Of a stretch of DNA of 64,000 nt, positions 41,349 through 42,982 are shown in pieces (the first letter of the stretch is position 1; every line of letters starts with the position of its first letter). Made by a program: the position numbers and the translations under genes. The notes under the pieces are model-generated. The model saw nothing but the letters and a program-made list of their open reading frames with translations, was not told the DNA's origin and ran no database searches. This stretch comes from Anaerohalosphaeraceae bacterium. GTDB lineage: Bacteria > Planctomycetota > Phycisphaerae > Sedimentisphaerales > Anaerohalosphaeraceae. The stretch is taken from positions 1-64,000 of the forward strand of contig JBBFLK010000008.1 of assembly GCA_037479115.1 (NCBI GenBank), read 5' to 3'.

Positions 41349-41580
41349 CCGTATCGGTCTTTCCACACACAGGTTTTAACGTTTGTTCGAAAAACGAAAC
41401 GGCCGAGCCGGTCAGTTCGCCTTCTTCAGCGATTCATTTTCCCTCCGACACAGAGATGTCGCATCCCCTTATATCACAGGCATTTGCAGATTTTTTAAAA
41501 AAATCTGTTCTGTCGGCACGGCCTTTGTATTTACTCCTGTCAGTTAAGTTCTCGAACGAAAAAAAGTAAAGACCTTACAA

Positions 41581-41985
41581 ATGTACATTGTCGCCAAAGC
41601 AAATGTTTTAGCAATTGGAGTGCACAAGCGAATCGAATCCTTAAAAGAATTGCCGATTCGATTGATTTGTCTGAATCGCGGAAACGATGCAGTTCGCTCT
41701 TTGAAAAATGAAACGATTCACAGTGTAATCAGTCATTGGCACCTGAAGGATATGCCGGACGGGGCCTTTCTGAAAGGCCTCAAAAGCATCCGTCCCGACA
41801 TGCCCACCATCGCCGTGATTGAATCCAACAATCCTCAGCAGGAGATTCAGGCCCGTTCGCTGGGCGTCTCGGCCGTGGTTACCGAGGATTGTTCGGAAGA
41901 CCATTTCCGGCAGATCGTCTGCGGCGTGCTCGGACTGCGGGATGCCGCGGTGCTCGAGGATCTGTACGCTGTGAAAGAACTGTAG
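41581..41985 (+). CDS. Degenerate receiver-domain (pseudo-receiver) protein
   Basis: A 134-aa stand-alone protein whose second half follows the CheY-like fold: HSVISHWHLKDMPDGAFLKG in place of the phospho-Asp strand, then MPTIAVIESNN, then LGVSAVVTEDCSEDHFRQIV. The acidic pair, the phospho-acceptor Asp, the Thr/Ser and the Lys of true receivers all appear replaced (Ser-His-Trp at the acceptor strand), so phosphorylation is unlikely. No output domain is attached. The structured repeat region lies directly downstream on the same strand before the next terminator, so the gene and that RNA may share a transcript. The role is unknown; the call rests on fold pattern only. Confidence 0.6.
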   Translation: MYIVAKANVLAIGVHKRIESLKELPIRLICLNRGNDAVRSLKNETIHSVISHWHLKDMPDGAFLKGLKSIRPDMPTIAVIESNNPQQEIQARSLGVSAVVTEDCSEDHFRQIVCGVLGLRDAAVLEDLYAVKEL

Positions 41986-42060
41986 GAGAAAGAGCTGCTC
42001 CGCAAAACAACGGAGCAGAACGGCAGGAGTAAGCAAACGTCCGGTTTTCCGGACGAAGAG

Positions 42061-42325
42061 AATATCTTTCCTCCTCCTCCAAATGTCGGGCTTGCATGCC
42101 AACGAACGGTGGTCTAAGCCCGACACAAAAACAGCCGCGGGGCCCTGAGCCCCGCGAAACAATATCTTTCCTCCTCCTCCAAATGTCGGGCTTAGAGGCC
42201 AACGAACGGTGGTTTAAGCCCGACACGAAAACAGCCGCGGGGCCCTGAGCCCCGCGAAACAATATCTTTTCCTCCTCCTCCAGTTGGGTTCGCCAGCCGC
42301 CAACCCTGACGACTGCGAACCCGAC
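42061..42325 (+). repeat. Tandem repeat: two 100-bp units plus a diverged third
   Basis: Units 42061-42160 and 42161-42260 differ at 5 positions. Each reads AATATCTTTCCTCCTCCTCC, then hairpin A (42084-42093 with 42116-42125, and the same +100), then hairpin B (CGCGGGGC/GCCCCGCG, 42136-42156 and +100). The third copy keeps the pyrimidine tract (42261-42281) and a hairpin A of the same length (42283-42292 with 42316-42325) but lacks hairpin B. Differences between units 1 and 2 lie outside the stems. Confidence 0.9.
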
Positions 42326-42435
42326 ATTATCAGCAAAGCAGACCCTCCGTCTTCTGAATATAGCAAAGGGCGCAAGTCCGTCGTTGTGAAGTGTGTGTTG
42401 CGTATGGAAGAGGCGGGACCGAGTTTTTCCCGCTA

Positions 42436-42479
42436 ATCGGGCCTCAGACAGTCGCCGCTGTCTGAGGCCCGATTTTTTT
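42436..42479 (+). terminator. Strong intrinsic terminator ending the repeat-bearing transcript
   Basis: ATCGGGCCTCAGACAG (42436-42451) pairs perfectly with CTGTCTGAGGCCCGAT (42458-42473) around TCGCCG, followed by six further T. It is the longest perfect terminator stem I found in the window. Confidence 0.92.
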
Positions 42480-42550: not shown

Positions 42551-42982
42551 ATGAAACGTCCGATTTATTCAAACTTATGCAGGGGGGGAGTGCTCGCTGC
42601 GGTCCTCTTGGGTCTGAACGGCTGTGTCGAACGGCGTCTGACGATTCTGACGGACCCGCCGGATGCACTGGTGTGGCTCAATGATGAAGAAATCGGCCGA
42701 ACTCCGGTCACCGTCGGCTTTAACTGGTACGGAGACTACAAAGTCCGCATTGAAAAAGAAGGATATGAAATCATCCGCACCAACAAGGCCCTGAAGCGTC
42801 CGCCGGAAGATTATTTCCCCCTCGATTTTCTGGCGGAAGTGCTCTGGCCCGGCACCATTCGGCGGGACTTTGCGTGGAGTTTTGCCCTTGAGCCCGCTGT
42901 CAACCCGACGGCCGAGCAGCTGCTTGAACAGGCGGATGCCTTTCGCCAGAGAGCCGGCCGCGACCTTCCCGCCGCCCCCTGA
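42551..42982 (+). CDS. PEGA-domain lipoprotein
   Basis: A 143-aa predicted lipoprotein. ATG 42551 follows AAAAGGA and starts a signal peptide ending LGLNGCVERR (lipobox Cys about 26). A PEGA-type beta-domain follows: LTILTDPPDALVWLNDEEIGRTPVTV, split here by sense only, then YKVRIEKEGYE. Such domains are surface-exposed accessory modules; no catalysis is expected. A C-terminal EQLLEQADAFRQRAGRD helix is typical of planctomycete members of this lipoprotein group. It stands immediately after the terminator at 42479, so it probably has its own promoter, which I could not identify. Confidence 0.8.
   Translation: MKRPIYSNLCRGGVLAAVLLGLNGCVERRLTILTDPPDALVWLNDEEIGRTPVTVGFNWYGDYKVRIEKEGYEIIRTNKALKRPPEDYFPLDFLAEVLWPGTIRRDFAWSFALEPAVNPTAEQLLEQADAFRQRAGRDLPAAP

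Follow-up and report, generated by a model that had tools for sequence, protein, structure and literature searches.

Related RNAs and circuits in other bacteria

The Qrr sRNAs of Vibrio (LuxO, sigma-54) are regulatory RNAs driven by sigma-54, and one of them adjoins its activator gene. They are Hfq-dependent and encoded by separate genes, without tandem modules in a single transcript, whereas the planctomycete relatives considered here lack Hfq. The cuckoo RNAs of the Alphaproteobacteria, CcsR1-4 (RF02791) and ar14/NfeR1 (RF02344), are composed of tandem hairpin modules with CCUCC anti-Shine-Dalgarno (anti-SD) motifs, are co-transcribed with a small protein gene and finish at a terminator; their partner is the DUF1127 protein CcaF1 and their promoter is recognized by RpoH (PMC10253847, PMC10746234). 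The multicopy sRNAs LhrC1-5 of Listeria, under the control of LisR, pair with SD sequences through CU-rich sites (PMC4132741, PMC5880928). Compared by description, LhrC1-5 differ from the RNA reported here in being separate sRNA genes with neither a co-transcribed receiver nor sigma-54. In Proteobacteria the PrsK/PrsR/RpoN system links sigma-54 and an NtrC-type activator to the genes of PEP-CTERM surface proteins (PMC1569441, PMC9850573), and no RNA layer is described in those two papers.

The window, a 64,000-nt stretch of planctomycete DNA, encodes an array that can be compared with these systems. Our main reading, to which we give a probability of about 0.5, is that it specifies a sigma-54-driven, multi-site antisense RNA that would mask SD sequences, chiefly those of PEP-CTERM mRNAs. 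In what follows, L denotes fetched loci, G genomes (G000 being that of the window), and g and f genera and families, with g1 the genus of the window.

Structure of the array in the window

The array and its flanking elements are arranged as follows; R2 is the order-wide covariance model introduced below.

41995..42018, + strand: leader hairpin ahead of the array, 9-bp stem
42038..42055, + strand: second leader hairpin, 7-bp stem
42061..42160, + strand: module 1, with tract UCUUUCCUCCUCCUCC at 42065-42080, hairpin A at 42084-42125 and hairpin B at 42135-42157; R2 match 42065-42127 (+ strand), 62.8 bits
42161..42260, + strand: module 2, with tract at 42165-42180, hairpin A at 42184-42225 and hairpin B at 42235-42257; R2 match 42165-42227 (+ strand), 65.6 bits
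42261..42354, + strand: module 3, diverged, with tract at 42265-42281, hairpin A with two compensatory changes at 42283-42325 and mini-hairpin at 42336-42354; R2 match 42266-42328 (+ strand), 53.1 bits
42385..42397, + strand: GU-rich motif UGUGAAGUGUGUG, conserved in the arrays of L009 and L013
42435..42480, + strand: intrinsic terminator, 18-bp stem and T run, the strongest in the window

A preliminary description of this DNA, made from its letters, had recognized two 100-bp units and a diverged third, and this layout is correct: modules 1 and 2 (42061-42160 and 42161-42260) are 100 nt each and 95% identical, with 5 differences, and the third copy of the pyrimidine tract lies in the diverged unit at 42265-42281. 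Hairpin A of unit 3 departs from units 1 and 2 by C-G to U-A, U-A to C-G and C-G to U-G, exactly the two compensatory changes and one C-G to U-G change that had been claimed. The terminator, with 18 pairs, does rank first in the 64-kb window on a stem/T-tail scan, and its hairpin and T run are kept, with changes, in L009-L012. Folding free energy of the array region stands at z = -10 against shuffles. The open reading frames that cross the arrays arise mechanically and lack conservation, and the unit spacings of 88 to 138 nt ignore the frame, in agreement with the earlier view that the region contains no credible ORF. A sigma-70 promoter scan found no site.

Other claims of the preliminary description held in part. 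Differences between units 1 and 2 were said to avoid stems, and they do fall either apically in hairpin A or in a linker, five differences being few. The tracts were said to be exposed; in predicted ensembles the exposure is partial and moderate in the window array (P(unpaired) = 0.55, vs 0.37 for the remainder). Eleven of 13 loci show the tract above the remainder, whereas family f2 does not. The mini-hairpin at 42336-42354 does have CCUCC in its loop, but this feature is not generally conserved across the genus.

The statement that no described family has this layout is contradicted by the cuckoo RNAs, which have tandem hairpin modules with CCUCCUCCC motifs and which were also recovered when bacterial genomes were scanned with a pattern for paired tracts. 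Both kinds of RNA consist of tandem modules closed by a Rho-independent terminator, and with the same tract core and a co-transcribed small ORF (PMC10253847) they could suggest that the planctomycete array is a true cuckoo/CcsR RNA gained from Alphaproteobacteria. We consider such an origin extremely improbable. The Rfam models CcsR1 and ar14 match Rhodobacteraceae loci and 0/5 planctomycete array loci in the same run (RF02791 and RF02344 miss L001, L036, L047, L052 and L054), R2 gives only short, weak matches on the Rhodobacteraceae cuckoo loci, and the CCUCCUCCC motif sits in hairpin loops in cuckoo RNAs (L079, L125), whereas the planctomycete tract sits in the linker before hairpin A. The partner also differs, a DUF1127 protein there and a receiver-like upstream ORF here, as does the promoter, RpoH there and sigma-54 here. 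By these sequence comparisons the planctomycete array shares the plan of the cuckoo RNAs but is not a member of that class. If the main reading is true, comparison of the array with the cuckoo RNAs would be a natural test case for convergent evolution.

A structured RNA family with a covarying stem

The array is present in all six genomes of the genus, the other five having been found by DNA search (E <= 6e-56), with weaker matches in other genera of the window's family and in the order. The shared plan is a pyrimidine tract, a long hairpin A and a short hairpin B, repeated 2-5 times; within the window's family the repeat spacing is about 90-105 nt, and a terminator hairpin often closes the array. 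A covariance model built from 28 units (R1) matched 33/161 genomes of the order, in families f1, f2, f6 and f7. R2, run against 397 genomes of the class, gave strong and repeated matches inside the order only; outside it there were single matches (E >= 5e-5), which we read as background. Named array carriers are MAGs labelled Phycisphaerae and Planctomycetes.

Hairpin A covaries across four families. Among 34 units, 94.7% of its pairs are standard vs 84.3% in shuffled controls, and because the units were partly selected for having a stem the percentage paired is inflated, the compensatory pattern not. Changes on both sides affect nine of the ten pairs (0/500 shuffles), and when the partners are displaced by one to three columns pairing falls to 23-46%. 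The preliminary claims that pairing is under selection and that the product is a structured RNA are supported, and since homologous covarying structures exist in relatives, as its covariance-model check had asked, its main test was passed. An Rfam search of the window and five array loci (L001, L036, L047, L052, L054) matched no family, which agrees with the earlier expectation. The available sequences strongly support an uncatalogued structured RNA family with a covarying stem. We found no description of this RNA in a literature whose coverage took in few subscription journals.

Conservation of the stem base G-Y-Y-G-G-G and of the loop motif CGAACRGUGAU exceeds what pairing needs, and the loop contains CGAACRGUGAU or CCAAUCUCCGGU in most lineages; it is possible that this motif is a protein or tertiary contact site. 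The form CGRACRGUGAU is kept in g5, f2 and f6 (e.g., L022, L047, L054), and in g13 GCCAAUCUCCGGU takes its place. In family f7 some tracts are less SD-like (CUCUCUCUCCUCUUCUUC), yet all-pyrimidine throughout.

A stem base and loop conserved in this way, and an f7 tract made wholly of pyrimidines even in its poor anti-SD versions, are what might be expected of a protein-binding array that titrates Rho, a cold-shock protein, S1 or the pseudo-receiver described below, as CsrB titrates CsrA. The multi-copy layout suits titration, and a small protein gene is presumably co-transcribed. We nevertheless regard this explanation as unlikely: CsrA occurs in most relatives, but the arrays display no conserved GGA motif, and titration does not predict either the PEP-CTERM preference or the co-variation of tract and target between lineages that are presented below. 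A CsrB/RsmY-type CsrA decoy in particular was rejected; CsrA is present in most relatives, but the repeated GGA loops are missing.

A sigma-54 promoter motif and a pseudo-receiver precede the array

The preliminary description spoke of a non-coding transcript; it had passed over two upstream elements, as well as the link to PEP-CTERM genes.

41514..41529, + strand: sigma-54 type promoter CGGCAC-GGCCT-TTGTA, 9/12 to TGGCAC-N5-TTGCW
41581..41985, + strand: pseudo-receiver ORF, 134 aa, CheY-like fold without the phospho-acceptor Asp, acidic pair and Lys

The -24/-12 sequence TGGCAC-N5-TTGCW of a sigma-54-dependent operon is found at a conserved position, and the window site, at 9/12, is among the weaker matches; the sister genomes have 10/12 at the same position, and most relatives 10-11/12 at the equivalent one. 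In a scan limited to sites of at least 10/12 within 700 nt 5' of the pseudo-receiver, for which the background P(>=10/12) is about 8e-6 per base, the motif TGGCAC-N5-T[TC]GYW occurred at 10-11/12 in 39/51 loci and on the other strand in 0/51, comprising 16/19 discovery loci and 23/32 loci from the protein search. Its usual distance from the start codon is 50-170 nt, rising to about 670 nt at loci where modules precede the ORF; arrays that follow another gene and have no pseudo-receiver ORF upstream mostly have the motif about 230-370 nt before the first tract. The promoter motif at array loci is strongly supported by these alignments, and we propose that the transcript would start about 12 nt downstream of 41514-41529. 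The array in this genus is probably not a free-standing gene but part of a sigma-54 operon.

The pseudo-receiver scores below the cut-off against Pfam Response_reg (E 8.5e-4), and its AF2 model (pLDDT 85) matches the receivers of NtrC1, Spo0F and DctD in Foldseek. The positions of the phospho-acceptor, acidic pair and Lys are those we take to be equivalent from strand position and CheY. W53 is invariant, and Asp is at neither 52 nor 53 in any member. The idea that W53 is the replaced phospho-acceptor was dropped, residue 52 being the acceptor site by strand position and W53 its neighbour.

In the genus the array begins directly after the stop codon of the 134-aa ORF, and the two are presumably co-transcribed. 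The ORF adjoins arrays in all four families, the array following it or, in some lineages, flanking it. Homologues were found by protein search in 62/159 genomes of the order, most loci fetched by protein similarity alone contain R2 modules, and 31/33 R1-positive genomes have the ORF, the exceptions (G027, G029) both being incomplete genomes. Paralogous pseudo-receiver loci with modules of their own also occur (L284-L287, L290, L291); these lie in the window's genus, g13 and f2, together with PEP-CTERM genes, and those of g1 include a receiver-less activator.

That activator is a sigma-54 activator with AAA+ and HTH domains only and no receiver, encoded beside the array or pseudo-receiver in L014-L017, L036, L057, L077 and the g1 paralogue loci. 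PrsR has its own receiver, whereas the planctomycete activator has none and the pseudo-receiver is encoded as a separate protein. The closest homologue of the activator in the window's genome is on contig 3 (G000:C3:62920-63975; L335), directly 5' of genes resembling those of ribosomal proteins L13 and S9.

Linkage of arrays to PEP-CTERM genes

In 9/42 loci the array is followed on its own strand by PEP-CTERM genes, against an expectation of at most about 1.5% each; with 8 to 77 such genes per genome, chance would place one beside the array in roughly 1% of loci. Several arrays are directly 5' of PEP-CTERM genes, and in the window's genome these genes lie elsewhere. In L430 the order is sigma-54 site, modules, pseudo-receiver, module and seven consecutive PEP-CTERM genes, in L431 five PEP-CTERM genes follow the array, and in G086 three consecutive PEP-CTERM genes are each preceded by a single module 95-98 nt before the ATG. 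Linkage of the array to PEP-CTERM genes is strongly supported by this gene order. The PEP-CTERM genes scattered over the window's genome showed no sigma-54 sites, and control of these genes by sigma-54 was rejected.

The three modules of G086, each 95-98 nt from an ATG, and the layout of L430, L431 and L433, where modules or arrays separate the sigma-54 site from PEP-CTERM operons, would also suit an element that acts in cis, in the leader or between the cistrons of PEP-CTERM operons, as a stabiliser, processing site or translational switch; the window array would then be a terminated variant that has no downstream cistrons. We think this somewhat unlikely as a general explanation, because in 53 of 72 cases no ORF begins within 260 nt of the last module, and because in g1 the arrays end at a conserved terminator with the PEP-CTERM genes elsewhere and the module copy number is held at 3-5.

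Complementarity of the tract to PEP-CTERM translation starts

For the antisense reading the relevant evidence is the fit of the tract to mRNA start regions, which was analysed in 1.66 Mb of the window's genome; PEP-CTERM starts there rank with the closest fits to the tract. Among strong-SD genes the tract-to-start energy is -18.2 kcal/mol for PEP-CTERM genes vs -11.2 kcal/mol for others (p 5.6e-5, in 1.19 Mb not used in forming the hypothesis), gene calls and start choices being crude and SD energy being used for both classes; the first 464 kb gave the same preference (p 8.6e-4). In 6/6 genomes the tract of the genome's own lineage, or of a close sister, is the best fit to its own PEP-CTERM starts; lineages with several tract types have more chances to match, and for the g1 genomes, with a single tract, that of g1 is still best. 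Tract and start match, for example, as CUUUCCUCC with GGAGGAAAG in g1 and as GUUUUCUCC with GGAGAAAAC in f2. The g1-f2 interaction of tract and target has p 0.0036 by match length and 1.9e-4 by energy, and p 0.05 and 0.003, respectively, when four array-linked f2 genes are left out.

No mRNA start in the genus was found with a full 12-nt complement of the tract, so pairing would use seeds of 7-10 nt. The full complement GGAGGAGGAGGA was rejected as a unique target, since outside the arrays it lies within apparent coding sequence only. Sites of the type GGAGGAAA-N-ATG number 64 vs 7 in the control, and strong SDs followed by A's are common; the PEP-CTERM selectivity could therefore be a by-product of the strong SDs of these genes. 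Hfq is absent from 40/40 relatives examined, and pairing would thus be Hfq-independent. Of the earlier proposal of a multi-site regulatory RNA or sponge, the multiple anti-SD-like tracts are supported, but a sponge for other sRNAs found no support, and pairing with mRNA start regions would be the better reading of these sequences.

A model for the operon

In the antisense model, the sigma-54 promoter at 41514-41529 would drive an RNA of about 940 nt, which codes for a phosphorylation-dead receiver and, past its stop codon, continues into the three-module non-coding array and the strong terminator. Each module would offer its pyrimidine tract UCUUUCCUCCUCCUCC in the linker ahead of the conserved hairpin, and the tracts, as repeated antisense sites, would keep ribosomes off by pairing with GGAGGAAAG-type SDs, with the mRNAs of PEP-CTERM (exosortase-sorted) surface proteins as preferred targets. 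In the window's genus the RNA would act in trans. In other families of the order the modules stand within PEP-CTERM leaders or between the cistrons, so that a cis action could apply there. A sigma-54 activator would be needed, for which the receiver-less protein linked to several loci is the candidate, and the pseudo-receiver may control either that activator or the array RNA. We infer transcription and its start, pairing in the cell, a repressive effect and the function of the pseudo-receiver from the sequences and their arrangement.

A broader and more tentative form of the model, possible rather than probable, is a planctomycete-specific circuit in which receiver-less activator, pseudo-receiver and tandem antisense RNA together govern the exported PEP-CTERM proteome, the RNA having moved between cis leader and trans regulator while its tract co-evolved with the SD regions of the family. 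If the main reading is true, the RNA would apparently be, within the literature searched, the first class of conserved regulatory RNA with a link to PEP-CTERM/exosortase surface proteins, and an Hfq-free multi-target RNA in the Planctomycetota, where sRNA biology is little known. The array would also offer a natural case for testing the co-evolution of an antisense tract with the start regions of an entire target family, and the combination of pseudo-receiver and receiver-less activator poses the question by what means a phosphorylation-dead receiver would work in trans.

Additional motifs at array and PEP-CTERM loci

The GU-rich motif TGTGAAGTGTGT occurs in 12 places in the 1.66 Mb, 8 of them ahead of PEP-CTERM genes, where it lies 47-87 nt before the start codon, and once in the array transcript. 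Leaders with the motif are in G000 loci L211, L346, L354, L355, L369 and L383 and on the minus strand of the window; copies not associated with PEP-CTERM genes exist as well, some of them in genomes of the family that lack the array.

In L046 and L047 (g5) several GGAGGAGG repeats lie between the sigma-54 site and the start of the pseudo-receiver, and these leader repeats are complementary to the tract of the array in their own transcript. A PEGA-domain lipoprotein gene (42551-42982 in the window) is 3' of the array in the genus and is found near the array in L019, L027 and L047.
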